This document shows positions 39,892 through 58,400 of a stretch of 64,000 nt of DNA, piece after piece. This DNA comes from an uncultured Verrucomicrobiales bacterium (lineage in GTDB: Bacteria > Verrucomicrobiota > Verrucomicrobiia > Verrucomicrobiales > DEV007). The position numbers and the translations under genes were made by a program. Location: the NCBI GenBank assembly GCA_937891465.1, contig CALAHF010000018.1, positions 1 through 64,000 on the forward strand, in the 5' to 3' direction. The first letter of the stretch is position 1. Each line of letters begins with the position of its first letter. The notes beneath the pieces were generated by a model, which saw only the letters and a program-made list of their open reading frames with translations, was not told the origin of the DNA and did not search any database.

Positions 39892-39940
39892 GTAATTTAA
39901 CATTTTTTGGCAAATGGCGGCCGCGGATGGAGAGTTCTTT
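39892..39940 (+). promoter_or_regulatory. Conserved upstream module A, before the sigma gene
   Basis: GTAATTT, 10 nt, GGCAAA (39909-39914), 14 nt, GGAGAGTTCTTT (39929-39940), then ATG at 39946. The same parts with identical spacing occur at 46636-46684, and the GGCAAA-GGAGAGTT pair with identical spacing at 49800-49827. GGAGAG may serve as ribosome-binding site, and the upstream parts as promoter. Confidence 0.6.
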
Positions 39941-39945
39941 GTGTA

Positions 39946-40482
39946 ATGACCCCGTCCGACCGCGATAAGCACGATCAATTCATTCGTCTCTATGTTGAGA
40001 ACGAAGAGTCGCTTCGCGGGTTTGTGCGCTCTCTGGTTCCAACGTTGGAAGATGCCCGTGAGGTGATGCAGGAGACCGCTGCAGTGTTGTGGCGAAAGTT
40101 TGATGAACTGCATTCGTTAGAGGATTTCCGGCGCTGGGCATTTGGTGTGGCCCGCTTCGAGGCCTTGGCGTTTCGACGTGATCGAGCGCGTGATCGCCAC
40201 GTTTTTAGCGAGGATTTGATCGCCATGCTGGAGTCTGAAGCCGAAGAGGCGGGGGAACAAAGCAATCGCGAAGAAGAAGCTTTAAAAAACTGCCTGAGGA
40301 AACTGCCAGGGAAACAGAGAGCTCTCGTTGAATCAGCATACGACAAGGGAGTTCGGATCGATCAGATGGCGGAGGAAATCGGCCGAACGCCGATGTCTCT
40401 CTACAAGGCGCTGCACCGGATTCGCATGAGCCTTGCGGATTGTATTGAGCAATTTTTACAAAAAGAAGAACAACCGGGATGA
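39946..40482 (+). CDS. ECF RNA polymerase sigma factor
   Basis: A 178-residue protein. Region 2 spans about residues 15-75 (FIRLYVENEESLRGFVRSLV; DAREVMQETAAVLWRKFDEL; FRRWAFGVARFEALAFRRDR). Region 4 reads CLRKLPGKQRALVESAYDKG, then IDQMAEEIGRTPMSLYKALH and RIRMSLADCI. The start ATG 39946 has GGAGAG 12 nt upstream. It overlaps the FecR gene by 4 nt, and so forms a sigma/anti-sigma pair. It probably reads its own promoter and those of downstream genes bearing the same upstream module; that is inference. Confidence 0.9.
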   Translation: MTPSDRDKHDQFIRLYVENEESLRGFVRSLVPTLEDAREVMQETAAVLWRKFDELHSLEDFRRWAFGVARFEALAFRRDRARDRHVFSEDLIAMLESEAEEAGEQSNREEEALKNCLRKLPGKQRALVESAYDKGVRIDQMAEEIGRTPMSLYKALHRIRMSLADCIEQFLQKEEQPG

Positions 40483-41846
40483 AATCTAAAGATGTCCATA
40501 TGGAGTTGGTGGATCGCTATTTGAGCGGTCAAGCCACTTCCGAAGAAGGCGAACAACTGGAACAGTTGATGTTGGAAAATCCTCAACTTCGTTCTGACTT
40601 TTTAGCCTATGCGAGAATTGACGCGGCGCTGCCGGGAGCAGTTGGCGGCGATGCTGAATTGATTGAGTTTAATCCGAATCCCGTTGGTATTTCCAAAAAA
40701 GGGAATTGGCTGGTTTGGGGACCGATCGCAGCAGCGGCTGTGTTGTTGATCGGTTTGTTTCTTGGCAGCGGTTTGTTGCAAAACGGCTCGAGCGACTCAT
40801 CGCAAGTGGTCGCCCGTTTTGGTGGATTGAGTGACTGCCGATGGGTGGATGCCGCAAAACAAATTGAGTCGGGACAGCGGATCAAAGTTGGAGAGCGTTT
40901 GGAGTTGTCTTCGGGAATTGCGGAAGTGATTTTTGACACCGGTGCCCGCCTCGAGTTGACCGGGCCCACCATCATTGAAATTCGGTCGAGCAACGGCGGG
41001 TTTCTCACCATGGGTGAAGTTCATCTAGTCGCCGAAACACCGGAGTCGAAAGGATTCACTTTAGAGACACCAATTTCAAAGTTCATCGATATTGGAACGG
41101 CCTTTACTGCTACCGTTTCGCCAGATGGTCTGAGTCGACTGGATGTGACGGAGGGTGAGGTCGATGTGATTGTTGATGAGAATGTTGGTCCGCGACGGAT
41201 CACTGCCGGGCAAACTATGTACGTCGAGCCGGGAGAGAGAAAAATCGTCACTCGTCTCGAAGCGGGTGACGAAACTCCCGCTTTCATATTTCCAACGATC
41301 AGTCCGCCGAGCAACAGCGACTATGCGGATGTGGCGAACGGGAAGGCAAGTATCAGAGCAATTCATAGGGAGCTTGAGGGAAGTTCGCTGGGAGGTGGCC
41401 CTGTATCCGTCCTGATCGATGGAGAGGGGCAGTCCAAACAGGATTCGCCTCGCCAGTCAGCTTTTTTTTCCAGCCATTGGAAGGGTAATTATTTCTTGAT
41501 GGATCTGGGGAAGCCCATTTCAATTTCACGAATCAATTCCTATTCGTGGCATCAGCACAACGATATCGAAGAGCACCGTGAGCGAGCTCGACAGCGATTC
41601 ACACTCTACGGATTTGCAGGAGATGAACCGCCAGCTGTCGGCAATCACGGAAAAACCGGATGGACAAGAATCGCACGGGTCAACAGCGATAAGCTATTTC
41701 ACGTCAATGAAAGGTTGGATCGCCCGGCTCAGCAGGGTTGCGAAATATCAGCGACCAGCGGGGACCTCGGACGCTTCCGCTATCTTTTGTGGCACGTGAA
41801 AGGAAGCACCTTCTTCGGGGAGTTCGATGTGCATGGGGCACCTTAA
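40479..41846 (+). CDS. FecR-domain membrane protein, putative sigma regulator with C-terminal discoidin-like domain
   Basis: A 455-residue protein. The cytoplasmic part (residues 1-75) has LVDRYLSGQATSEEGEQLEQ, an anti-sigma-type helix. A membrane helix follows at about 80-102 (WGPIAAAAVLLIGLFLGSGLL) and then the FecR domain (ELSSGIAEVIFDTGARLELT; FTLETPISKFIDIGTAFTAT; LDVTEGEVDVIV). The C-terminal 150 residues resemble a discoidin/F5-F8 fold (GNYFLMDLGKPISISRINSY; RFRYLLWHVKG), likely sugar-binding. Translational coupling to the sigma gene supports a signalling pair. Confidence 0.85.
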   Translation: MKSKDVHMELVDRYLSGQATSEEGEQLEQLMLENPQLRSDFLAYARIDAALPGAVGGDAELIEFNPNPVGISKKGNWLVWGPIAAAAVLLIGLFLGSGLLQNGSSDSSQVVARFGGLSDCRWVDAAKQIESGQRIKVGERLELSSGIAEVIFDTGARLELTGPTIIEIRSSNGGFLTMGEVHLVAETPESKGFTLETPISKFIDIGTAFTATVSPDGLSRLDVTEGEVDVIVDENVGPRRITAGQTMYVEPGERKIVTRLEAGDETPAFIFPTISPPSNSDYADVANGKASIRAIHRELEGSSLGGGPVSVLIDGEGQSKQDSPRQSAFFSSHWKGNYFLMDLGKPISISRINSYSWHQHNDIEEHRERARQRFTLYGFAGDEPPAVGNHGKTGWTRIARVNSDKLFHVNERLDRPAQQGCEISATSGDLGRFRYLLWHVKGSTFFGEFDVHGAP

Positions 41847-41883
41847 AACGACCCACTTCCAAATCTGTTTTCTTATTCAATAC

Positions 41884-43281
41884 ATGAAATATTTCCTGTC
41901 CAAATCGACGCTCGCTTGTCTGTCTTTGATTATGCTGCCGCAAGGCATGGCATCCGCGACTGAGGAAGAGTCCATTGCGAGCTTTCTTCAAAATCACTGC
42001 GTGAAATGCCATGGTGAAGAGAAACAAAAAGGCGACCTCCGCCTCGATCAACTGGATGTTCAAATCAGCGAGCACGCGTCAGTTTCGGCATGGCAGGACG
42101 TTCTTGATATGCTGAACACGGGCGAAATGCCGCCGGAAGACGAAACTCAACCACCAAAAGAGGAACTGACTTCTTTTATTGGAGCCATCACCGATAACAT
42201 CACGTCGGCTCATAAAAGGCTAGCGGATACCGGCGGCAAGATTTCGATGCGTCACCTGACGAAACGAGAATACCTCGGCAGCATGGAAGATCTTTTCGGT
42301 ATCGAACTTCCGCGGAACCTTTTGCCGGACGATGTCAGCGGTGAGTTTGATACGATCGGTTCTGATCAGTTTTTCTCTCTAAAGCAGTATGAGAATTTCT
42401 ACAAAGCAGGCAAAGCAGTCGTTGGGAAAAACCTGCTGGCAATCACGTCGCCCCTTCTAGAGCAGAAGACCCTGCGGCACGATCCTGAAATCGCTCCTGC
42501 GGAAGCAGCCAAGGCGGCTTATGAAAAAATGATAACAGTGAAGGAAATGCTCGAGGCTGGAGCCCCATATTCCGAAATTGCCAAGATTGATCCCAAAGTA
42601 GCTGACGAAGGTCAGGGTAAATTGTTCATCAGTCGATACCCCAAGCGCAGCGTAAAGCCGATAGCCAACTACGAAAAGACCAAGGGTAAAAAGGGCGTGA
42701 CTGGGAGTTTCAATTATTCCACCGAATCCAGACCTCGCAGTGTCTATAAACTCAAACTCTTCGCCCTCGAAGCATCGGAAGGAGGCCTGAAAATTCGAGT
42801 TAACGGCAAGGCCGCAGGCGAGGTGAAGTTCCAGTCAGATCAGACACGCGTTTCATCCTATATGATGCCGTCGCAGTCCGTTCTCAGCAGCATGGGAATC
42901 ACCATCCCGGTTCATGCCCTGTCTCATTACAACATCTCCGAAGAGAGAACCGTCAATGCCGGCCTCCGCGACCAAAAGTGCATGGAACTGTTTGGATACT
43001 TGCTCGATCGCTTGAAAGAGAAAAAAGACCTCAGTGGCCAGAGCCTCTACGACAGCTGCCTCGTGAGTTACGGGAGCAACATCCGCACTGGCCACATGTT
43101 AAAAAACGTACCCGCCTTCGTAACCGGAAATTCGAAAGGCCGCATCCGCCACGGACAACACATTGTCACGCCTGAGGACACCGCGCTCTGCGACTTGTGG
43201 CTGACCTTGCTGCAAACTTGCGACGTGCCGGCGGAATCATTCGGCGACAGCGGTGGGACAATTTCCCAAATGCTCGCGTAA
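41884..43281 (+). CDS. In-frame chimera: DUF1592-type N-terminus joined to DUF1552 C-terminus
   Basis: 465 residues from ATG 41884. The first part is the start of a DUF1592-type protein: signal peptide, haem domain (SFLQNHCVKCHGEEKQKGDL, VLDMLNTGEMPPEDE), DUF1587 (MRHLTKREYLGSMEDLFGIE) and a following beta domain. From about 42845 (residue 320) the sequence becomes the end of a DUF1552 protein (RVSSYMMPSQSVLSSMGITI; LYDSCLVSYGSNIRTGHM; NSKGRIRHGQHIV). This aligns with the intact DUF1552 protein encoded at 54351-55646. The DUF1592 core and DUF1588/DUF1585 parts and the DUF1552 start are absent. The simplest origin is an in-frame deletion between adjacent DUF1592 and DUF1552 genes. Function of the product is doubtful. 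Confidence 0.85.
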   Translation: MKYFLSKSTLACLSLIMLPQGMASATEEESIASFLQNHCVKCHGEEKQKGDLRLDQLDVQISEHASVSAWQDVLDMLNTGEMPPEDETQPPKEELTSFIGAITDNITSAHKRLADTGGKISMRHLTKREYLGSMEDLFGIELPRNLLPDDVSGEFDTIGSDQFFSLKQYENFYKAGKAVVGKNLLAITSPLLEQKTLRHDPEIAPAEAAKAAYEKMITVKEMLEAGAPYSEIAKIDPKVADEGQGKLFISRYPKRSVKPIANYEKTKGKKGVTGSFNYSTESRPRSVYKLKLFALEASEGGLKIRVNGKAAGEVKFQSDQTRVSSYMMPSQSVLSSMGITIPVHALSHYNISEERTVNAGLRDQKCMELFGYLLDRLKEKKDLSGQSLYDSCLVSYGSNIRTGHMLKNVPAFVTGNSKGRIRHGQHIVTPEDTALCDLWLTLLQTCDVPAESFGDSGGTISQMLA

Positions 43282-43300
43282 GCTGCCTAGATCAAAATCA

Positions 43301-43681
43301 ATGAAAAATAGACAACTTATCTATTGGATCCTTTGCATGGGGCTCGCAACCGCCGCGGACGGTGCCGACATCGAACGCGGCAAGGCTCTCTACGCTCAAC
43401 TCTGCTTCAACTGCCATGGTCCGAAACTGGAGGGAGGTCAGGGCCCGTCGCTGATCGACAGCTACTGGCAACACGGCTCGTCTCCCGACGCGAGTCTTCG
43501 AGTGATCGACAAGGGCGTCCCTGGATCACCGATGATCCCTTACGAAAACGTTTTCCCCGAAGCCGACCGACTGGCCTTGCGTGACTTCATTCTCTCCGAG
43601 CAGGTGGGATTACGGGAAGTCGTCCGCTCGGTTTATCCCCGCAGTCATTTCACTACGAAACGAAGGGTGACTCAGTCTTGA
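43301..43681 (+). CDS. Short secreted cytochrome c protein, deletion derivative of an SGNH-cytochrome gene
   Basis: A 126-residue protein with signal peptide MKNRQLIYWILCMGLATAAD and one haem c domain (ALYAQLCFNCHGPKLEGGQG; SMIP-like ligand region GSPMIPYENVFPEADRLALR). The domain is very close to that in the 601-residue SGNH-cytochrome protein at 49860-51665. Here the SGNH domain is absent, and after VYPR the sequence jumps to the DNA of that protein's last residues in a shifted frame, giving the odd tail HFTTKRRVTQS. It should still bind haem and export. Confidence 0.75.
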   Translation: MKNRQLIYWILCMGLATAADGADIERGKALYAQLCFNCHGPKLEGGQGPSLIDSYWQHGSSPDASLRVIDKGVPGSPMIPYENVFPEADRLALRDFILSEQVGLREVVRSVYPRSHFTTKRRVTQS

Positions 43682-43735
43682 TTGCTACTTAAATTGATGG
43701 CGAAAAAGCCACCATCAAAATTCCCTCCCGAATCG
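43645..43735 (+). pseudogene. Remnant of the 3' end of an SGNH-cytochrome gene
   Basis: Read in the second frame, this stretch gives FHYETKGDSVLIAT, a TAA (43690-43692), then IDGEKATIKI. The intact paralogue ends FLHYETQGDSVLIATQIDGE, so the TAA replaces CAA. It shows that the short cytochrome gene arose by internal deletion of a longer one. Confidence 0.7.
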
Positions 43736-44014
43736 ATGTCTCAGGAATCGGTAAGTCGCCGTTCGCTTAATCTCGGTCTCATCATTAGCATGGCGGTCGC
43801 TGTCCTATTCGTGACATATTGTGCATCTTACCTGTATCTGCGGCTGTTCAAAGTAGGCGCTAGTGGTGATGGGATTGTGATCATCAATGTGGATTCCGAC
43901 TCCGACTACCCACTTGAGCTGCCGTCGAAAACGGAAGTCTTCGCCCATGAAGTTTTTTCTCCAATCGTTTGGCTGGAGCAGAAAATCTCGGGGCGCATTA
44001 TCCATATCGAATAG
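43736..44014 (+). CDS. Small single-pass membrane protein, unknown
   Basis: A 92-residue protein from ATG 43736. It has a short polar N-terminus, one membrane helix (LGLIISMAVAVLFVTYCASY, about residues 13-32) and a small external domain ending FSPIVWLEQKISGRIIHIE. Nothing catalytic is visible. Its start lies just past the SGNH-cytochrome remnant and it precedes the second sigma system by 223 nt, in which I see no further feature. Confidence 0.55.
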   Translation: MSQESVSRRSLNLGLIISMAVAVLFVTYCASYLYLRLFKVGASGDGIVIINVDSDSDYPLELPSKTEVFAHEVFSPIVWLEQKISGRIIHIE

Positions 44015-44237
44015 AGGGAAGAGCCGAGAGATCTCTAAACTCAAATCAACGGACTGCCGCAATTACCGAGTGGCAGGCCTTAGATGCTTTATGGCTCCCA
44101 TAAGCTTCACCGATTGCAATTTGTCCTTAATCAATGCCACCTTCTGGAGGGAGCTTGCAAAATATTCTGAACTTTTTTCCACGAATCGGACACGTATGGA
44201 GTGAAGCACTTGATTTAATTCCTGAATCTCCCGCGTT

Positions 44238-44720
44238 ATGTCCCAATCATCACTCATAATTGAACAGCTCTTCGAGGCCAACTCGGCCTCGTTGATGCGG
44301 TTCTTTTCGCGCTGGCATCTGGGTGGCGTGACTCAGGAAGATCTCCTTCAGGACACTTTTCGCGAAGTTCTTCGGAACCCCGAAAACATGCTCGGGGCTC
44401 GTTCGGCGAAAGCCTACCTTTTCGGCATCGCCCGCAATATGGCACGCAAGGCGACAAGGAATCAGCTTTCCACGATACCGCTCGAAGGGGATGTCGCGGC
44501 CACCGAAAATCGCGAAGATCCAAGGCTGGAAGTGCTGCGACTTGAACTCACCAAACTTCCAGCGGCCCAGCGCCAAGTCCTTGAAATGCGCACCCGCCTG
44601 TCTCTTTCCTATGCCGAAATTGCCTCCGAACTTGACCTCCCGATAGGAACTGTTCGTTCGCGGATTCACAACGCTATTGCCAAACTTAAAACAGCCGTCA
44701 TCAAACATGAAAATCTCTGA
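44238..44720 (+). CDS. ECF RNA polymerase sigma factor
   Basis: A 160-residue protein with region 2 (LMRFFSRWHLGGVTQEDLLQ; RSAKAYLFGIARNMARKATR) and region 4 (LTKLPAAQRQVLEMRTRLSL; YAEIASELDLPIGTVRSRIH). It is closer to classical RpoE/SigW-type ECF factors than the two FecR-linked ones. It overlaps the next gene by 14 nt, a membrane anti-sigma-like protein, which indicates a second independent sigma system inside the island. Confidence 0.9.
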   Translation: MSQSSLIIEQLFEANSASLMRFFSRWHLGGVTQEDLLQDTFREVLRNPENMLGARSAKAYLFGIARNMARKATRNQLSTIPLEGDVAATENREDPRLEVLRLELTKLPAAQRQVLEMRTRLSLSYAEIASELDLPIGTVRSRIHNAIAKLKTAVIKHENL

Positions 44721-45177
44721 TCAGGAAAAAATCATCGAGGGACTTCTCACCGACTACGCGATGGGAGAGCTTCACGACGCGTCGTCGATTGTATTGATTG
44801 AAGCGCTGCTTCAGCAAGAAGGAATCTACGAACAAAAGTTTTTCGACATCCAGGAAACACTCGCGCTGTTGGACGAAGTTGAACCTGACGCCGAAGCGCA
44901 AATATTGGACGAACCTCGGACTCGATCACGAGGACTTCCACTTGCAGCACTCGGGCTCGCAGGAGCCTTGGTTGTAGGATTTTTCTTGATAGGACCTTCA
45001 GAAGATCCGGCACCAGCGACTGGTGGTCTTGAACTCGCCGCGCTGGCAGAGAGGTTCGCTACGCAGCCGATCACGGAGAGCCGGGTAACTAGCAACGTGC
45101 GTCGCGGAGGCGACGTGCCATGGAAAGATTCCGACAAAGAATTTTACACTTATATCCAATCAAAAAAATCTAACTAG
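44707..45177 (+). CDS. Putative membrane anti-sigma factor
   Basis: A 156-residue protein from ATG 44707. The N-terminal cytoplasmic part (IIEGLLTDYAMGELHDASSI; ALLQQEGIYEQKFFDIQETL) has the helical character of an anti-sigma domain. One membrane helix lies at about 78-96 (LPLAALGLAGALVVGFFLIG). A short periplasmic tail ends FYTYIQSKKSN. No zinc-finger HxxxCxxC motif is present. The 14-nt overlap with the sigma gene argues for partnership. Confidence 0.7.
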   Translation: MKISDQEKIIEGLLTDYAMGELHDASSIVLIEALLQQEGIYEQKFFDIQETLALLDEVEPDAEAQILDEPRTRSRGLPLAALGLAGALVVGFFLIGPSEDPAPATGGLELAALAERFATQPITESRVTSNVRRGGDVPWKDSDKEFYTYIQSKKSN

Positions 45178-45201
45178 CATCATTTCAATTTCTAAAAAAT
45201 T

Positions 45202-46572
45202 ATGAAAACACCATCGTTTATCTATCTGATCGGCTTACTTCTTAGCTGCTTTTTCCTGACTTCATGCAAAGACGAAACGCGCCGAATCGTTTGGTCTCCC
45301 AACGGTGAATCCGCAACTCTTCTCGCAGGGAATTCGCTTCACCTTATGGACTCCAAAGGCAACGCGACGGACCTGCTTACCGACGGTATTATCGCTGCAG
45401 AATGGGTCAACGACGAGAAGCTGCTCGTCATCCGCAAAGAAACGGTTTCCTGGGAAGAAGCCCAAACTATTCTCGGAAAGGAGCGAAGCGAAAAACTGGT
45501 TTCAGATGCTGAGACGCTGCTCGCCGAGGCCGCTTCCGCCAACCCTGAGGAATTGGAAGATTTGGTCGGGGTGCACTCCGTTTTTTATCTCCTACCTTAT
45601 CTGCTGAACGAACGACGAGAGGAGACACTGGCTCTTTTCAAGAAAGCGGGCGGTGGCGAAACTGATGAAGTAGACGAGCAGGAAATCGAGGAAGCCTCGA
45701 TGTTGCACTTTCTTCAATCAGAAACTCACTCGTGGAATGGCACTGAGCTCGGCGAGCCTATCAAGGTAGACGCGTCCATATTGGTAAATTTCCTTACGGA
45801 AAACGGCCACGTCAGTCTGCGAATGCACCCGGATGGGACACACTCGCTGTTATCTATCGAGGAGGCCTATTCCCCGGGCATCTGGCTGCTCGACCTGGAG
45901 AATGGCAAGAAGGCGACCCGAATTGCGGGTGGGGAAACTGCCCTATTTCCTGATTGGACGCCCAATGGAAAAAATATCGTCTATACACGAGGCGTTCCTG
46001 ATTCCCGGTTTGGCGAGATAGTTGCGCAAAAGATCTTCGATGATTCAGGCGCCCTTGTTGTTGAACAGGCAGAGGTGCTGGTCTACACACCATTCCATAT
46101 GGCGATGCGAACCCGCTGCCTGGAGAATGGCAATGTTCTATTTGCGGCACCAGAGTGGAACTTGCCTTCTCCGCCGGCGGACGGACCAATTTCGGATCAG
46201 CTTTTCGAACTCGACATGCAGCGCCCTGGGGTGGTTAATCGAGTGCTTTCCTCTTCCGCTTTGGTCGGCCTTCCCGATAGCATCAGCTTCTTTGAACTGA
46301 GTCCTGACAAAATGAAGATGCTTGTAGCTTCGACGGGGGATTCGAAAGTCTTTACTCTCTCGCTCAACGGCGAACCTAAGGCACTTCAGGAACATGATTT
46401 AGGCAAGCTTCGCTGGATGCCGACCTGGCGGAATACGGAGGAAATCTGCCTTCTCGTGAAGGATGAATCCGGCAGCCTTCAGGCGGCTATTCGGAACGGA
46501 GACGAAACACAAATCATCAGTGGGAACTGGTCTCCCGCTATTCGAAAAGAACTACTTTCCGAAACTGAGTGA
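45202..46572 (+). CDS. Lipoprotein with TolB/WD40-like beta-propeller
   Basis: A 456-residue protein. Its signal peptide ends in a lipobox (CFFLTSCKDETRR, Cys22). Repeated propeller blades are suggested by RRIVWSPNGESATLLAGNSL, ALFPDWTPNGKNIVYTRGVP and SFFELSPDKMKMLVASTGDS, a PD40-type repeat as in TolB. An acidic helical insertion lies at about 95-175. It follows the anti-sigma gene by 24 nt, so it may be the main cargo of that sigma system. Ligand unknown. Confidence 0.75.
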   Translation: MKTPSFIYLIGLLLSCFFLTSCKDETRRIVWSPNGESATLLAGNSLHLMDSKGNATDLLTDGIIAAEWVNDEKLLVIRKETVSWEEAQTILGKERSEKLVSDAETLLAEAASANPEELEDLVGVHSVFYLLPYLLNERREETLALFKKAGGGETDEVDEQEIEEASMLHFLQSETHSWNGTELGEPIKVDASILVNFLTENGHVSLRMHPDGTHSLLSIEEAYSPGIWLLDLENGKKATRIAGGETALFPDWTPNGKNIVYTRGVPDSRFGEIVAQKIFDDSGALVVEQAEVLVYTPFHMAMRTRCLENGNVLFAAPEWNLPSPPADGPISDQLFELDMQRPGVVNRVLSSSALVGLPDSISFFELSPDKMKMLVASTGDSKVFTLSLNGEPKALQEHDLGKLRWMPTWRNTEEICLLVKDESGSLQAAIRNGDETQIISGNWSPAIRKELLSETE

Positions 46573-46635
46573 TTTTCGATTCTGTGGCGAGCCCTCCCTG
46601 GTCGAAGAGTGTGCCCGCTTGTCGTATGAAATGAA

Positions 46636-46718
46636 GTAATTTCATATTTTTCGGCAAATGGCGGCTTCTGCTGGAGAGTTCTTTCTGAATGGACGGCTCC
46701 GACCGCGGAATGCAATGA
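46636..46718 (+). promoter_or_regulatory. Conserved upstream module B, with a 9-codon frame, before the double sulfatase
   Basis: GTAATTT (46636), GGCAAA (46653-46658), GGAGAGTTCTTT (46673-46684), with the same spacings as module A. A short frame follows (46689-46718) reading MDGSDRGMQ; module A leads into the sigma protein start MTPSDRDKH, and the DNA TCCGACCGCG is shared. The sulfatase ATG is 48 nt further on. Confidence 0.6.
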
Positions 46719-46766
46719 GACGAAGCCGAACTGCGAAATTTCAAGTGGATCCAACCCTGAATCCTG

Positions 46767-49661
46767 ATGAAACTGACAATTAGATTAACTTCCTTACTCA
46801 TCGCTTTGGCGGTTGCCCTTCCTTTACGGGCAGCTGACAAACCTAACATCATCTTCATCCTCGCCGATGATATGGGCTACGGGGATTGTTCAATCAACAA
46901 CCCTGAGTCAAAGATCCTGACGCCCAATATTGACCAACTGGCAAAGATGGGTGTGCGGTTCACGGATGCGCATTCGGCAGCCGCGGTCTGCACCCCTTCT
47001 CGCTATGGCTTGCTCTCCGGCACCTGCCCGGCACGGACGGATATCAACAATTTCACAGCCGGCCGAGGACCTGTCATCGATCCTGATGAAATCACGATAG
47101 CCGATCTGCTCAAAGAGCAGGGCTATGCCACGCATATGATCGGAAAATGGCATCTTGGCTTTGAAGGAGGACGCGCCTTCGATTTTTCGAAGCCGCTGAC
47201 AGGTGGCCCCCTGGATTGCGGTTTTGATTCGTATTTTGGCGTGAACAAAGCCCCGAGCAGTCCTCCTTATTTTTATATTAGGGACCGGGAGCCTGTCGCC
47301 AAGCCGGAAGGGTCGATCGACGGTAATGAAGGAAAAGGCATGGACAGGCGGGAGATTTACCGCAAAGGCGAAGCCGCACCGGGTTTCAAGCCCGAAGAAA
47401 TCACTGAAGTGATGTGCCATGAAGCGGTCAAGGTGATCCGCGACTACGGAGAGTCGGATAAGAAGCAGCCGTTCTTTCTATACTACGCACTGACGTCACC
47501 ACATTCCCCCTGGCTGCCATCGGAAAAATTCAAAGGCAAAAGTGAAGCGGGGAACTACGGCGATTTCATTGTGCAGCTCGACGACGAAGTCGGCAGAGTC
47601 GCAAAAGCCTTAAAAGAAACCGGACTAGAGAAGGACACGTTGATTATCTTCTCCAGTGACAACGGCCCCATGTGGATGAACGGGGACAAGGAAAAGTTCG
47701 GTCACCACGCTTGCGGTGTTCTGAAAGGACACAAGGCCTCACCGAACGAAGGCGGACACCGCGTTCCATTCATCGCGAGATGGCCGGGCAAAATTGCGCC
47801 GGGAACGGTCTCCGGATCGACCATCAATTTCACCGACTTCTTTGCCACACTGGCGGAGATGTTTGAGGTGAATTCCCAAAAGAAATACCCGGGTATGGCC
47901 AGGGACAGTTTCAGTTTTTACCCAGCTCTGTTTGAACCGGAGAAAAGAATTCCCCGGCCGCCGATGATCGTCGGCAACTACAGCTTGAGGATGGACGACT
48001 GGAAACTCGTCGCCCGCAAGGCGGGAAAAAAGGGAGGGATTCCTGCCATCACAGATGTCAAAACCTACAACCTCGCAGAAGATATCTCCGAACAGAATGA
48101 TCTCGCGACATCCAGCCCCGAACGGCTACAGGAGATGTACGATCACTATAAAAGCTTTCTGGAAAATCGGAAATTAACTCCGGACGCCCCAGAGAAGAAA
48201 ACGGGGAAACAGGGCAGGTCTAAATCACAACGCAAATCAACAAAGCCAACTGCGAAAGTCGTTGGCGCCGCTAAACTTCCAAACATCGTTCTCATGATGT
48301 CCGATGATCAGGGCTGGGGCGAGACGAGCTACAACGGTCACCCGCAACTGAAAACACCTATCCTCGATGAGATGGCAGCCACTGGTTTGCGGTTCGATCG
48401 CTTCTACGCCGCCTCGCCGGTGTGCACCCCAACCCGCGCCAGTGTGTTGACCGGGCGTCACGCCAATCGGATGGGCGCCTTCGGGGCAAACTGGTCGATT
48501 CGTCCCGAAGAAGTCACCCTGGGGCCACTTCTGAAAGCCGCCGGTTACCGAACTGCCCACTACGGCAAGTGGCATGTCGGCGCGGTAAAGAAAGACTCGC
48601 CACTCTCACCGAAGGCGCTGGGCTTCGATGAATCGCTCTCGCACGATAACTTTTTCGAGATGAACCCGGCTCTGAGCCGAAATGGAAATTCGCCCGAGCG
48701 GATCAACGGGGAAGGTTCCGAAATTTTGGTAAAAGAGGCCCTGGATTTCGTGCGTCGATCATCCAGCGAGGACGCACCGTTCTTCGTCGTGATCTGGTTT
48801 GGCTCTCCCCACTCCCCTTACGAGTGCTCCGAGGAAGACAGCGCACCCTACCGCGATCTCGGTGAAGACCTGAGCCGCCGCTACGGCGAGATCGTCGCCA
48901 TGGACCGCGCCATCGGACAATTTCGCGACGGCCTCGATCGTATCGGTGAGCGCGCTAACACGCTAATCTGGTTCAACTCAGACAACGGGATGACCACCGA
49001 GATGATTCCCAGGGAGCAGCAGGCGAACATGTTCAACGGCGGCCTGCGCGGAACCAAATCGCATATGAACGAGGGCGGCCTGCGCGTTCCGGCCCTGATC
49101 GAGTGGCCCGCGATGATCACTGATGCGAGGAACAGTTCCGTTCCCTGCGTTACCTCCGATATTCTGCCGACCCTGTTGAATATCTTACAAATCGCTCACC
49201 CAAATCCGGAGCGTCCGCTCGACGGTATCAGCCTGAAAACTTTGGTCGTAGATGGGACGATGAAAGAACGCCCAAAGCCGATCGGATTTTCCGGATACGA
49301 CTGGAAGGCCGAGCAGGAAAACGAACCGTGGTTGGCAGATCGAAGCCTCAACGAATTCATCACCGAGACAGCGAAGAAGAATCCGACGCAAACAAAGCGA
49401 ATGACCTCCTTCAAGAATCATCGGCATCCGGTGGTGAAAACTGAGTTCGATAAATCGAGGGCGTGGATCGACAATCGATACAAGTTGTTGTTTCCGAGGG
49501 GTGGGAACGCCAGTTTCGAACTCTACGACATCGTCGCCGACAAGGAGGAGAGCCATGACCTCGCCTCCGGGAATCCTGAGATCGTGGAGCGCATGGCGGC
49601 CGAATTGAGAGCGTGGCAACTGTCAGTGGAAAAGAGCCTCACCGGTGCCGATTACCGGTAG
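46767..49661 (+). CDS. Secreted double sulfatase (two fused sulfatase domains)
   Basis: A 964-residue protein with signal peptide MKLTIRLTSLLIALAVALPLRA. The first sulfatase domain, about 24-465, has metal ligands in IIFILADDMGYGD, the formylglycine motif VCTPSRYGLLSG (Cys75) and GKWHLGF. A basic linker follows (TGKQGRSKSQRKSTKPT). The second sulfatase domain, about 505-950, has IVLMMSDDQGWGE, VCTPTRASVLTG (Cys553) and YGKWHVG. Both sites look complete, given maturation by a sulfatase-modifying enzyme not seen here. It would cleave sulfate esters from polysaccharides such as algal glycans. The linker before the second domain, VVGAAKLPN, looks like the remains of a signal peptide, suggesting fusion of two neighbouring genes. 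Confidence 0.9.
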   Translation: MKLTIRLTSLLIALAVALPLRAADKPNIIFILADDMGYGDCSINNPESKILTPNIDQLAKMGVRFTDAHSAAAVCTPSRYGLLSGTCPARTDINNFTAGRGPVIDPDEITIADLLKEQGYATHMIGKWHLGFEGGRAFDFSKPLTGGPLDCGFDSYFGVNKAPSSPPYFYIRDREPVAKPEGSIDGNEGKGMDRREIYRKGEAAPGFKPEEITEVMCHEAVKVIRDYGESDKKQPFFLYYALTSPHSPWLPSEKFKGKSEAGNYGDFIVQLDDEVGRVAKALKETGLEKDTLIIFSSDNGPMWMNGDKEKFGHHACGVLKGHKASPNEGGHRVPFIARWPGKIAPGTVSGSTINFTDFFATLAEMFEVNSQKKYPGMARDSFSFYPALFEPEKRIPRPPMIVGNYSLRMDDWKLVARKAGKKGGIPAITDVKTYNLAEDISEQNDLATSSPERLQEMYDHYKSFLENRKLTPDAPEKKTGKQGRSKSQRKSTKPTAKVVGAAKLPNIVLMMSDDQGWGETSYNGHPQLKTPILDEMAATGLRFDRFYAASPVCTPTRASVLTGRHANRMGAFGANWSIRPEEVTLGPLLKAAGYRTAHYGKWHVGAVKKDSPLSPKALGFDESLSHDNFFEMNPALSRNGNSPERINGEGSEILVKEALDFVRRSSSEDAPFFVVIWFGSPHSPYECSEEDSAPYRDLGEDLSRRYGEIVAMDRAIGQFRDGLDRIGERANTLIWFNSDNGMTTEMIPREQQANMFNGGLRGTKSHMNEGGLRVPALIEWPAMITDARNSSVPCVTSDILPTLLNILQIAHPNPERPLDGISLKTLVVDGTMKERPKPIGFSGYDWKAEQENEPWLADRSLNEFITETAKKNPTQTKRMTSFKNHRHPVVKTEFDKSRAWIDNRYKLLFPRGGNASFELYDIVADKEESHDLASGNPEIVERMAAELRAWQLSVEKSLTGADYR

Positions 49662-49782
49662 GCAGGCCGGTGCCCGATAGTCGGGAAAACCCTGATCTAA
49701 GAAAGTGACGAAAACTAAGAAATAAATCGTCCCAACATCGTCCTCAATTGAGGCGGTAACCCGTTTCCCGACAATCACGTCA

Positions 49783-49858
49783 TTTAGAAGAAATATTTCG
49801 GCAAACCATCCTTCCCTGTGGAGAGTTTGATGTGACGAAGTCCGAATTTAATCGATAA
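49783..49858 (+). promoter_or_regulatory. Conserved upstream module C, with a short frame, before the SGNH-cytochrome gene
   Basis: GGCAAA (49800-49805) and GGAGAGTT (49820-49827) with the same 20-nt step as modules A and B; the upstream GTAATTT is diverged to GTCATTT and 4 nt further away. A short frame GTG 49832 to TAA 49858 (MTKSEFNR) ends 1 nt before the next start codon. Confidence 0.5.
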
Positions 49859-49859
49859 A

Positions 49860-51665
49860 ATGAAAATCCTAGTCTGCCTGTTTGCCGTATGCGCGATCTC
49901 AACTTCTTTGATTTCGGCCGAAGAGAGTCTGAAAAAGAACGATCGCATTGTTTTCCTTGGCGATTCCATCACGGCTGCAGGAGTTCGCCCGACGGGTTAC
50001 ATCACCCTGGCATCGAAGCAAATCGAACTGGCTTATCCCAATCTTGATGTGGAGTTAATCGGTGCGGGCAAAGGCGGTCACAAGGTCCCCGACTGCCAGG
50101 CACGCCTGCAAACCGATGTGCTCGACCACAAACCCACCATCGTTTTTATCTACATTGGTATCAATGATGTCTGGCATTGGACTCACCCGAAGGTGGTCGC
50201 CAGAGGTAAAAAAGGCACGACCCCGGAAACCTTCGAAAACGGTCTGCGAGATATGATCGAAAAGATCAACGGTGCCGGCGCCCGGGTCATTTTGTGCACC
50301 CCGACTGTTATTGGCGAAAAACCTGACGGCACCAATCCCGAGGATGCCAGACTCGACCAGTATGCCGACATCAGTCGCAGGGTCGCTACAGAGACCAAAT
50401 CTCAGTTACTCGACCTTCGAAAAGTTTTTATTTCGAATCTAAAGCAGAACAACACGGAGAACCTGACGCAAGGCATTCTCACCAGCGACAGCGTGCACAT
50501 GAACGATGCTGGCAACAAACTGATTTCCCAACTCGTTCTCGAAGCCCTCGAGGTTCCGTCGATTAAATCTCAGGAACCGACGCATGTTGCAACAGCCGAA
50601 TTCGAGCGCGGCAAAACCATTTATTCCCAGCTCTGCTTCAACTGTCACGGTCCGAAATTGGAGGGTGGTCAGGGGCCATCCCTCATCGACAGCTATTGGC
50701 AGCACGGTTCCTCGCCGGAGGCGATTCTGAAGGTGATCAACAAGGGGGTTCCCGGATCGCCGATGATTCCGTATGAAGCTGTTTTCCCGGAAGCAGATCG
50801 AATTGCCCTGCGTGATTTCATTCTTTCCGAGCAGGCGGGATTGCGGGAAACGGTGCGATCCATCTACCCGCGCGATTACTTCAAGGGCAAGCGATTCACG
50901 CCTGAGTTGTTTGATTCGGTCGAATCGGAGTCGCAAACAACGCTGCCTGAAAATCATTATTATTTCCCGCGAAGCGCAGAAGGGGTCCTTCGTGGGAAAT
51001 CGAAACTCTATATCAAAGAAGCGGGGAGTTACCGCTTCAACATTCGACTTCTCGGGCGCACCTCCATTTTTCTGAATGGGGACGAAGTTCACTATTCGGA
51101 TGAAAAGGCAGATAAGGCAACGCACCTCAACAAGACCGTCGACCTAAAGCCGGGCGTGCATGAATTGGAAATCCTGCATGAAGAGAAGCCGAGCCACAGC
51201 TATCGGTTTTCTGGCTTCTTCGAAAAGGTCGGGGGGGAGCGGATCGCGCTCAATGGCCGCAGCCTGCAGGGGAATATTCCGAAGATCATCAAAGCCAGGC
51301 CTGATGAGGCTCTGGTAGTTCGCAAATGGATCGATGGTTTGCCGCCAAGGGCGTTGCTTTGCCTGCTTCCGAATCAGGTGATTGTCGCCTACAACCCGGT
51401 TGACGGAAAAGTGCTCAATGCCTGGCATTCGGCAGTAATCAATCAAACGCCTTCGTTGCCCGATCGAAGTGCGAAGCCATCCGAAATAAACGGCACCCTT
51501 ATTCCCGATGGAGGAACTGATCCATCCAGTGGAAAAACACACCGGTTTCTTCACTACGAAACGCAAGGGGACTCAGTCCTGATCGCAACCCAAATTGATG
51601 GCGAGAAAACCACCATCAAGATCACTCCTAAAGGTAAGCAGTCTTTCTCTGTTTCCAAAAGCTAA
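49860..51665 (+). CDS. Secreted SGNH hydrolase fused to a cytochrome c domain and a C-terminal beta domain
   Basis: A 601-residue protein with signal peptide. The SGNH hydrolase, about 25-235, is complete: GDSITAAG (Ser36), IYIGINDVWHW, and SDSVHMNDAGN with the catalytic D and H. The cytochrome c domain, about 245-345, has YSQLCFNCHGPKLEGGQG (haem Cys259) and GSPMIPYEAVFPEAD. The remaining part, about 355-470, resembles PA14-like beta sandwiches (YFPRSAEGVLRGKSKLYIKE; YRFSGFFEKVGG), and a C-terminal propeller-like segment closes the protein. Linking an esterase to haem suggests the product of deacetylation is passed to, or anchored near, an electron-transfer chain; this is inference. Confidence 0.85.
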   Translation: MKILVCLFAVCAISTSLISAEESLKKNDRIVFLGDSITAAGVRPTGYITLASKQIELAYPNLDVELIGAGKGGHKVPDCQARLQTDVLDHKPTIVFIYIGINDVWHWTHPKVVARGKKGTTPETFENGLRDMIEKINGAGARVILCTPTVIGEKPDGTNPEDARLDQYADISRRVATETKSQLLDLRKVFISNLKQNNTENLTQGILTSDSVHMNDAGNKLISQLVLEALEVPSIKSQEPTHVATAEFERGKTIYSQLCFNCHGPKLEGGQGPSLIDSYWQHGSSPEAILKVINKGVPGSPMIPYEAVFPEADRIALRDFILSEQAGLRETVRSIYPRDYFKGKRFTPELFDSVESESQTTLPENHYYFPRSAEGVLRGKSKLYIKEAGSYRFNIRLLGRTSIFLNGDEVHYSDEKADKATHLNKTVDLKPGVHELEILHEEKPSHSYRFSGFFEKVGGERIALNGRSLQGNIPKIIKARPDEALVVRKWIDGLPPRALLCLLPNQVIVAYNPVDGKVLNAWHSAVINQTPSLPDRSAKPSEINGTLIPDGGTDPSSGKTHRFLHYETQGDSVLIATQIDGEKTTIKITPKGKQSFSVSKS

Positions 51666-51672
51666 CCATCAC

Positions 51673-51718
51673 CACGAAGCAACAGGGTGCGTTCGATGAA
51701 CCAACCCTATTGCTTCGT
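51673..51718. repeat. Palindromic dispersed element, copy 8
   Basis: ACGAAGCAA (51674-51682) pairs perfectly with TTGCTTCGT (51710-51718), with CAGGGT opposite ACCCTA and centre GAT. It starts 8 nt after the SGNH-cytochrome stop and precedes the next gene. Confidence 0.9.
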
Positions 51719-51734
51719 AAACCACTTTTTTGAA

Positions 51735-54269
51735 ATGAACCAATCATCCCTATTGAATCGATTCCCGATTTTCCTTCTGGCTCTGTTTTTCAGCAGCATC
51801 GCCTCCGCTCAACTTCCGGCGGGTTACCGTATTGAAACCGTCCCGCTCCCCAAAGGTGCTGTCACGATTCTCGGCCTCTGTCACAAGCCGGACGGCACGC
51901 TCGCCGTCGTGAGTTGGGAAGGTGAAGTTTGGGAATACAAAGACAAGGCCTGGACTCGCTTCGCCGAAAATTTGATGGAGCCGAACGGCATCTATTATGA
52001 CGTGAAAGAAAAGGCCTACTACGTCGCCCAGAAGCCGGAGTTGACGCGACTGGTTGATGCGAATGGCGATGGCGTTTGCGATCGATACGAATGCGTCACG
52101 GACGATTTTGGTGTTTCAGGCGAATACCATGAGTATCACTATGGGCCGGTTGTCGATTCACTCGGTCGAAAATATGCCTCGCTCAATCTTGCGGCCCGGG
52201 GTGAATTCACTGTGCCGGATGGCAAGCCGGTCGGAAAAGGCGGCGGCAACATGTCCTACAACGCACCGTGGCGTGGCTGGGTTTACCGGTCGGACCGTCC
52301 CGGGCATTTCCAACCCATCGCGAATGGCTTTCGTTCGCCCTGCGGCATCGGCATCAGTCCGAATGACGAGCTCTTCATCACCGATAACCAAGGAGACTGG
52401 GTTGCGGACTGTTGTCTCTATCACGTTCGAGAAGGAAATTTCTACGGCCATCCCGCCTCGCTTCCCGCGCGACCGGATTTCACAAAAGAGAAAGTTCTGT
52501 CGATGACAGCCGGGGACTTTGCAAAACTTCGCACGCCCCCAGCCGTTTGGTTTCCCCGTGAGATTATTGCCAACACACCCGGCAGTCCGACCTGGGATAC
52601 GACTGGTGGAAAATTCGGCCCGTTTGAAAACCAAATGTTTATCGGCGATCAACGGCAATCAAATTACTTCCGCTGTGGTGTGGAAAAGGTAGATGGCGAT
52701 CTCCAGGGCTGGTGCGTTGATTTCCTTCGCGGCCTCGAATCAGGCCCGGTGAAAATGTCTTTCGATGGAGCCGGACGATTGTGGTCCGCTCAGGTCGGTC
52801 GTGGTTGGTTCAGTGTCGGGGGGAAACGCACGGCCTTGCAATACGCGGAGTGGGATGGCAAGACGATCCCGTTTGCGATTCATTCGTCTTCGTTAACCAG
52901 GACGGGGTTTGAGGTCACCTTTACGCAATCGATCGGAGAGGAAATTAGTCCGGCGGTGAAATCCTGGCATTACCACTACTACAGCACCTACGGATCGCCT
53001 CCAGTAGATGAAACACCGCTTAAGGTCACGAACTACAAGCTCTCGAAAGATCGCAAAACGGTTTCCTTTGATGTGCCGCTGGTAGAAGGCAAAGTCTATG
53101 AATTGCAGTTTCCCGGGCAGAAGAATTCGGAGGACGTCCCGCTGGATTTCGACGCCATTTATTACACGGTGAATAAACTTCGACCCGCCAAAGAACCGGG
53201 CGCAGGCCGGAACGTTGGATGGACTCTCGCAGGTTCCAGCTGGAATCGGAATGACAAGCGACGTCCTGCACCCGGAATTGTTGAACCACTCCCTGAAAAA
53301 GACTGTAAGCTTCAGGCACCGGAGAACGCCACGGTTCTCGACGCCGATCAGTGGAGCAATGCATCGTGGAAGATCGATGAGGCAGGCGTCATGATTCGAG
53401 GAGAGGGCAACAATTCGACCACGAAATCCTATGGCAACGCCCGCATCCACTTGGAGTTTCGCTTCGATCCTTCCGATGATCCTGAGTGGGTCGGACAGCT
53501 TTACGGAAACTCAGGAGTTTTCCTAATGTCCGGTTACGAGTTGCAGGTCGTGAACAGTTTTGAAAATCCCACCTTCGCCGACGGCACTTGTGGTTCGATT
53601 TATGGGCAGCATCCGCCCCGGGTGAATGCGAGCCGTAAGCCCGGTGAGTGGCAGGCTTATGACATTCTCATGAAAGCGCCTGTCTTCGGTAAAGACGGAT
53701 CGGTCGAAGAGCCTTTGCGCGCCACCATCTTTCATAACGGCATTCTCATCCACGACGATGTCTGGGTGTATGGAGAAGTCGGCGGCCCCTACAAAGCCCA
53801 TGGAAAGCGTCCATTGATGTTGCAGGATCACAAAGGAACCGACGTTTCTTTTCGCAATGGGTGGATTATCCCTGACGTCGATTACGATCAGTCTCTGGAA
53901 TCATTTCGCAGTAACTTTGGAAACACGCCGAATCATTTTGTGGAAGCGACCCCTGATGTAAAGCCCATCACCATTCTCAATGCGGGAATGGTGAGGGACA
54001 TGGACAAGAATGCGGATGCCATCATCACCGTCGATGAATTTGTCGCTTACCGTGCTGCACAGTTTGATCCCCAGGACCTGGATGGAAATAAATTTCTCGA
54101 TGCCGCGGAGTTTCCTCATCCCGGATCCTTTCGAGGAGGAGATAAAAACAAGGACGGAAAGCTCTCACGCGAGGAGCACCTTGATATCTTTCGAGGGCAA
54201 TTCCCGAATGTCGATGTGAACGGCGACGGTAAAATCACCGCCGCGGACAAACGAAAGAAACAAAAATGA
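51735..54269 (+). CDS. Secreted beta-propeller / DUF1080 / EF-hand protein
   Basis: 844 residues from ATG 51735 (longer in-frame starts lie inside the repeat). It has a signal peptide (FPIFLLALFFSSIASAQ), then a PVC-type glucose/sorbosone dehydrogenase-like propeller at about 20-470 (ILGLCHKPDGTLAVVSWEGE; FRSPCGIGISPNDELFITDN; PGSPTWDTTGGKFGPF). A DUF1080 concanavalin domain at about 545-735 has WKIDEAGVMIRGEGN and GNSGVFLMSGYELQVVNSF. Four EF-hand-like calcium loops follow (DKNADAIITVDE, DLDGNKFLDAAE, DKNKDGKLSREE, DVNGDGKITAAD). It probably binds and processes glycan in a calcium-dependent way. The island on the plus strand ends here. Confidence 0.88.
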   Translation: MNQSSLLNRFPIFLLALFFSSIASAQLPAGYRIETVPLPKGAVTILGLCHKPDGTLAVVSWEGEVWEYKDKAWTRFAENLMEPNGIYYDVKEKAYYVAQKPELTRLVDANGDGVCDRYECVTDDFGVSGEYHEYHYGPVVDSLGRKYASLNLAARGEFTVPDGKPVGKGGGNMSYNAPWRGWVYRSDRPGHFQPIANGFRSPCGIGISPNDELFITDNQGDWVADCCLYHVREGNFYGHPASLPARPDFTKEKVLSMTAGDFAKLRTPPAVWFPREIIANTPGSPTWDTTGGKFGPFENQMFIGDQRQSNYFRCGVEKVDGDLQGWCVDFLRGLESGPVKMSFDGAGRLWSAQVGRGWFSVGGKRTALQYAEWDGKTIPFAIHSSSLTRTGFEVTFTQSIGEEISPAVKSWHYHYYSTYGSPPVDETPLKVTNYKLSKDRKTVSFDVPLVEGKVYELQFPGQKNSEDVPLDFDAIYYTVNKLRPAKEPGAGRNVGWTLAGSSWNRNDKRRPAPGIVEPLPEKDCKLQAPENATVLDADQWSNASWKIDEAGVMIRGEGNNSTTKSYGNARIHLEFRFDPSDDPEWVGQLYGNSGVFLMSGYELQVVNSFENPTFADGTCGSIYGQHPPRVNASRKPGEWQAYDILMKAPVFGKDGSVEEPLRATIFHNGILIHDDVWVYGEVGGPYKAHGKRPLMLQDHKGTDVSFRNGWIIPDVDYDQSLESFRSNFGNTPNHFVEATPDVKPITILNAGMVRDMDKNADAIITVDEFVAYRAAQFDPQDLDGNKFLDAAEFPHPGSFRGGDKNKDGKLSREEHLDIFRGQFPNVDVNGDGKITAADKRKKQK

Positions 54270-58226: not shown

Positions 58227-58400
58227 TGTTCCAATTGGGTGAGGAAAGACGACGAAACCTGTCGCGAATTCTGTCAATTCGTAAACTCCCATCATTGAGT
58301 GGTAAACGAATTAGCTTGTGGGGAAAATGACGTTCAGATCACACAAAGAGGTGTGCGTTTCAGAATCGCTAATCGAAAGTTTTTCGTTCAGTCTTGGGCC

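Follow-up and report, generated by a model that had tools for sequence, protein, structure and literature searches.

A predicted shared promoter element and sigma factor regulon of a sulfatase locus in an uncultured Verrucomicrobiales bacterium

The locus and its three copies of a shared element

We analyzed a 64,000-nucleotide (nt) stretch of contig CALAHF010000018.1 from an uncultured Verrucomicrobiales bacterium (assembly GCA_937891465.1; hereafter, the window), in which three gene units are preceded by copies of a common element, designated P1, P2 and P3. The first unit starts with the gene of an extracytoplasmic function (ECF) sigma factor, followed by that of a FecR-like membrane protein; the second encodes a double sulfatase; and the third an SGNH hydrolase fused to a cytochrome c domain and a 3-keto-disaccharide hydrolase-domain protein (Table 1). 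The sigma factor contains the PF04542 (residues 15-82) and PF08281 (residues 111-162) domains, thus only sigma2 and sigma4 with a short linker, which is the architecture of ECF (group IV) sigma factors. The cut-off of its family, TIGR02989, is exceeded at 19 places in this genome. The ATG start codon of the ECF gene (39946) lies 9 nt past the -10 box of P1. The FecR-like protein additionally shows a weak discoidin-like (DUF5000) match at residues 337-405. The 3-keto-disaccharide hydrolase gene starts 21 nt past the SGNH gene and is probably co-transcribed with it from P3.

Table 1. Coordinates of the features of the locus in the window
Feature	Coordinates	Strand	Remarks
Predicted promoter P1	39902..39936	+	T-tract, -35 GGCAAA at 39909-39914, -10 region GGAGAGTT at 39929-39936; before ECF sigma factor gene; score 32.8
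ECF sigma factor, TIGR02989 Sig-70_gvs1	39946..40482	+	178 amino acids; 167 bits, cut-off 124.55
FecR-like membrane protein, putative anti-sigma factor	40479..41846	+	One apparent transmembrane segment at about residues 77-97; FecR-like region at 145-228
Segment missing from the syntenic operon of genome G027 (L122)	41827..46572	+	PSCyt1/DUF1587 gene, cytochrome fragment, second ECF gene and transmembrane protein gene, lipoprotein-like protein gene
Lipoprotein-like protein	45202..46572	+	Inside the segment missing from G027
Predicted promoter P2	46646..46680	+	-35 at 46653-46658, -10 region at 46673-46680; before double sulfatase gene; strongest site of the genome, score 39.7, E-value 2.4e-5
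Putative ECF-gene 5' relic	46689..46718	+	ATGGACGGCTCCGACCGCGGAATGCAATGA, MDGSDRGMQ*; register matches that of ECF start codons
Double sulfatase	46767..49661	+	964 amino acids; two PF00884 domains; signal-peptide-like N-terminus
Predicted promoter P3	49793..49827	+	-35 at 49800-49805, -10 region at 49820-49827; before SGNH-cytochrome gene; score 31.3
SGNH hydrolase fused to cytochrome c domain	49860..51665	+	601 amino acids; ortholog in the G027 operon 75% identical
PVC-type protein with 3-keto-disaccharide hydrolase domain	51687..54269	+	Syntenic in G027

A preliminary description of this locus reported GGCAAA followed exactly 20 nt later by a second common box at three sites, and held that only three genes in the island carry it. 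Both statements were confirmed. The pattern GGCAAA-N14-GGAGAGTT has exact matches in the window at 39909-39936, 46653-46680 and 49800-49827, all on the + strand, and these are its only exact matches in the whole genome (5.97 Mb, 229 contigs); the reversed-pattern control gave none in the same 5.97 Mb, and by our own estimate a pattern of 14 fixed bases would match about 0.04 times by chance on the two strands. All three matches fall in this gene cluster. The pattern was derived from the three window sites, so this count is no independent test. With two mismatches allowed, 69 matches were obtained versus 42 in the control, which is near background, and therefore only the full motif is informative. 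No copy was found upstream of the second ECF gene of the island (44238-44720). Positions 39892, 46636 and 49783, under which the sites were first described, lie 17 nt 5' of GGCAAA, and at the first two of them a GTAATTT sequence begins.

As an independent test, we trained a position weight matrix on 27 sites that precede ECF genes of other loci, none of them in the window. P1-P3 scored between 31.3 and 39.7 (Table 1), and the runner-up on either strand of the 64 kb scored 15.9. The genome-wide ranking used patterns and a sequence-only covariance model built from 20 of the 27 sites; it placed the sites at 46646, 39902 and 49793 within the top four of the genome (E-values 2e-5 to 3e-3), the remaining top-four match belonging to an ECF paralog on contig C55 that is itself a training member, and the next match having an E-value of 0.27. 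From this sequence evidence we conclude that the three shared sites are a predicted promoter motif, not a coincidence. The GTAATTT sequence noted in the preliminary description is indeed present at the first two sites, 17 nt before GGCAAA, but it is not conserved among the 27 matrix sites; we ruled it out as a promoter component, and its occurrence is better explained by the common descent of P1 and P2.

Conservation of the element before ECF genes and other genes of relatives

Orthologs of the sigma factor were collected from related genomes and from named assemblies; nearly all of the latter are labelled as metagenome-assembled genomes of Verrucomicrobiota, with a few titled Phycisphaerales, Pirellula or Kuenenia. 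In 26 of the 29 named ECF loci, a GGCAA core is located 33-57 nt before the sigma factor start codon or the start of the match, and a second box follows at constant spacing (GGAGAGTT, GGAATGTT, GGCAGTGTT or similar). The version found in L145, GGCAAC-N13-GGAGTGAT, was missed by the regular expression. The ortholog in genome G027, which is 73% identical to the window protein, has the exact motif upstream. Numbered relative to the -35 core, the aligned sites share a T-tract at -7 to -3 and a C at -1; GGCAA itself is invariant, and the second box reads GG(A)(A/G)(T/A)GT. Among 13 further orthologs with upstream sequence (two being near-copies of training loci), a GGCAA-type core was present 33-57 nt upstream in at least 11; only six of the 13 scored 17 or more, because several spacers differ. 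When the degenerate pattern TNYBGGCAAA-N14-GGARA was searched in 15 genomes, matches outside ECF starts were mostly background.

The arrangement of the boxes could also be read as an element acting in RNA, either as a ribosome-binding site or as part of a structured leader, as GGAGAG resembles a Shine-Dalgarno sequence and occurs about 13-17 nt 5' of several start codons. However, P2 is located 86 nt 5' of the sulfatase start, so that the GGAGAG there is no ribosome-binding site, and the spacer sequence is unconserved. No Rfam family matched the element, and the conservation of the T-tract and of GGCAAA, at fixed spacing, is compatible with a promoter. We regard an action at the RNA level as extremely improbable.

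The element is not confined to ECF genes in the relatives. Across the 407 kb of the 29 named loci, a score of at least 19 was reached by seven non-ECF sites, compared with 0.15 expected from shuffled sequences. They precede sulfatases (L143, L149), a PSCyt1/DUF1549 protein (L155), a glycosidase-like protein (L149) and another ECF sigma factor (L135); behind the two other sites, in L148 (at a contig end) and L158, no gene was identified. Lower-scoring sites precede further sulfatases (L144, L146), in L146 also a large PVC cytochrome-type protein, and in L138 a GH59 protein gene divergently oriented from its ECF gene. G089 and G100 have the element as well, before a cytochrome gene and a DUF7133 protein gene, respectively. 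In G059 the exact pattern has seven matches, five of them in one cluster that includes the ECF gene. A near-identical pattern with the spacer one base longer, used as a spacing control, had no match in four genomes.

These occurrences before ECF orthologs, sulfatases and related genes lend good support to the candidate regulon originally proposed for the window, in which a self-driven sigma gene would be joined by the double sulfatase and SGNH-cytochrome genes. Genes encoding DUF1592 proteins had also been named among those to be checked for hits; the DUF1592 gene of the window (55662-58295) has no site, unlike the sulfatase and SGNH genes.

In L158 (15302-15444), the very strong site (score 33.3) is followed within ~110 nt by two hairpin-like repeats, the second of which ends in a T-run; this arrangement could specify an ECF-driven small RNA.

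Split of the operon and origin of P2

The orthologous genes of G027 are contiguous in the order ECF, FecR, sulfatase, SGNH-cytochrome and 3-keto-disaccharide hydrolase protein, and no site was found before the sulfatase, SGNH or 3-keto genes in that genome. In the window, the FecR and sulfatase genes are separated by 4.7 kb, and the sulfatase and SGNH genes each have their own site. Thus G027 would use a single ECF promoter for one operon, whereas in the window the operon appears to have been split and its separated parts to be served by promoter copies of their own.

The sequence behind P2 points to the source of one such copy. The relic sequence at 46689-46718 begins where an ECF start codon would be expected, and over this region 27 of 36 bases are identical to the ECF start region of G027 (L062), a level that among 127,930 window positions is reached elsewhere by the intact ECF gene alone. 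Judged by this similarity, P2 is a remnant of a lost ECF gene copy. A comparable origin was considered for P3 (49800; GTGACGAAGTCCGAATTTAATCGATAA, VTKSEFNR*) and rejected, as the similarity is not significant (p about 0.1) and only 19 of 36 bases are identical.

It might be argued that all three copies are shared by descent alone, as duplicated fragments of the ECF region that do not now act as promoters of the sulfatase and SGNH genes. The relic behind P2 would agree with this, and so would the GTAATTT and GGCGGC sequences that P2 and P1 have in common. However, the coding part of the relic has decayed and yet no other site of the genome scores as high as its promoter part, the boxes of P3 have been kept despite an unrelated spacer and unrelated downstream sequence, and the sites before sulfatases in relatives have unrelated spacers. 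Descent without present function is, in our view, improbable.

Truncated ECF genes behind the element were also found in two other genomes. In G070 (contig C25; the genome of the L133 ortholog), the exact motif is followed by an ECF gene truncated to ~65 codons (68-residue match, 54% identity, E-value 1e-16), then by a short stretch similar to the 3-keto gene (38 residues, E-value 2e-4) and the start of a sulfatase gene. In G056 (L226; C19:55565-55849, minus strand), GGTAAA-N14-GGAGATAT precedes an ECF gene cut at 104 codons after sigma2, and a DUF1501 gene follows. The 104 codons of G056, the ~65 codons of G070 and the 9-codon relic of the window may represent stages of one process. We tentatively suggest, with slightly less than even confidence, that autoregulated ECF regulons in this group expand by promoter donation, in which a decayed or truncated copy of the sigma gene leaves its promoter to the catabolic gene behind it. 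Three cases, two of them from draft assemblies (G056 and G070), are insufficient as proof of a general mechanism. When the N-terminal 74 residues were used to look for further truncated genes in 75 genomes of the family, nearly all the genes listed were intact.

An N-terminal remnant of another TIGR02989 ECF gene of the window genome is present at L198:1225-1332 (G000:C80:209724-209831); no target gene follows it closely.

The segment that splits the operon has features of its own. Its 484-residue PSCyt1/DUF1587 protein (41827-43281) does not match the DUF1592/1588/1585 domains of the full-length protein encoded at 55662-58295. The stand-alone cytochrome c protein (43253-43681) closely resembles the cytochrome domain of the SGNH-cytochrome protein encoded at 49860 and is probably a duplicate or remnant. 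The second ECF gene (44238-44720), which belongs to another subfamily, overlaps a gene at 44677-45177 whose product has one apparent transmembrane helix and is a possible anti-sigma factor.

Predicted regulon and its relation to known systems

We propose that the shared module is a -35/-10 promoter for the ECF sigma factor encoded at 39946-40482. The sigma factor would be kept inactive by the adjacent FecR-like protein until it is freed by an extracytoplasmic signal, possibly a glycan that the C-terminal domain of that protein detects. Together with RNA polymerase, the freed sigma factor would then transcribe its own operon from P1, the double sulfatase gene from P2, and the SGNH-cytochrome and 3-keto-disaccharide hydrolase genes from P3. 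Transcription from P1 would start close to or at the ATG of the ECF gene and yield a near-leaderless mRNA, and the regulon probably serves to utilize a sulfated glycan. An autoregulated, locus-sized ECF regulon that controls sulfatase-linked catabolism through P1-P3 is very probably the right explanation of the shared element, and its predicted extent in the whole genome is essentially these three promoters.

Two observations connect the boxes with the protein. The -10 variant of the target sites matches that of the ECF gene of the same locus or genome at 8.1 of 10 bases, versus 5.3 for permuted loci (0 of 10,000 permutations), an agreement weakened by the fact that promoter copies arising by duplication agree automatically. 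Residue 154, which falls within the putative recognition helix (region 4.2), is Q in all nine members of the GTTAA class and K in all ungapped others, comprising the GGCAAA and GGCAAT classes, a contrast that probably reflects a single evolutionary event in one clade. The nine form a TIGR02989 subclade with a GTTAAA-like -35 box (L074-L078, L081, L084, L085 and L159), and the third class has GGGCAAT. Aligned by eye, position 154 presumably matches Arg171 of E. coli sigma-E, which lies close to the contacts with the -35 box.

Several points weigh against the proposed regulon. Through the duplication and single-clade effects just described, both the -10 agreement and the difference at residue 154 are confounded by common descent; the C55 ECF paralog has a similar site and might engage in cross-talk; the strong L158 site has no gene directly behind it; and the FecR match of the window protein (E-value 0.0085) is below the Pfam cut-off, that of the L149 ortholog being stronger (2e-7; 31.7 bits, cut-off 24). 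Furthermore, the boxes differ from the textbook ECF promoter, with its AAC at -35 and CGT at -10 (PMC8103513). The motif and the protein are linked by co-occurrence only, and the second ECF gene sits between the sites, so one may ask whether the motif serves this second sigma factor, a housekeeping sigma factor or a DNA-binding transcription factor. Against this, the element is tied to TIGR02989 orthologs in 26 of the 29 named loci, the -35 box differs among ECF subclades together with the recognition-helix residue, and G027, which has the exact motif, lacks the segment with the second ECF gene. We consider recognition by such another regulator very unlikely.

If recognition by the TIGR02989 sigma factor holds, the element provides a testable promoter sequence for a large family of ECF sigma factors in Verrucomicrobiota and Planctomycetota, one member of which is tied to sulfatase-linked catabolism. 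The joint change of the -35 box and the K or Q at position 154 is a candidate specificity rule, and the relics suggest a simple route by which genes could join a sigma regulon with no need for a promoter to arise anew.

The window ECF scores above the cut-off of TIGR02989 (Sig-70_gvs1), a family of sigma factors from Rhodopirellula and Verrucomicrobium whose NCBIfam entry describes the protein family only. In the literature searched we found neither a promoter nor a regulon published for this family; the main ECF classification paper, which lies outside that literature, may contain a predicted motif. Like canonical autoregulated ECF promoters, the sites have two boxes at fixed spacing, and at the sequence level a common element precedes both the ECF gene and its candidate targets, as expected for positive autoregulation. 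Unlike the canonical promoters, they consist of CGGCAAA and GGA(G/A)(A/T)GT (GGAGAGTT, GGAATGTT or GGCAGTGTT), with no AAC or CGT at the expected places; the ECF definition was later restricted to the sigma2/sigma4 architecture (PMC8103513), and membership of the protein therefore stands.

The locus also resembles FecI/FecR pairs in having local targets and in that the ECF gene is directly followed by a gene for a protein with one apparent transmembrane segment and a FecR-like region, although the FecR match is below the cut-off. However, FecI-like systems are named exceptions to autoregulation (PMC8103513), whereas here conserved sites precede the sigma gene itself, and the predicted targets are sulfatases and PVC cytochrome-type proteins. 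No iron-chelate or TonB-dependent receptor was named among the neighboring proteins scanned, no genome-wide search being made. In Bacteroides thetaiotaomicron, pairs of ECF sigma and anti-sigma factors are encoded beside glycan-degrading genes. The window shares with these glycan loci an ECF pair adjoining such genes; it differs in the ECF subfamily, in that no SusC/SusD-type genes were identified here, and in that one target promoter appears to be a remnant copy of the sigma factor's own promoter.

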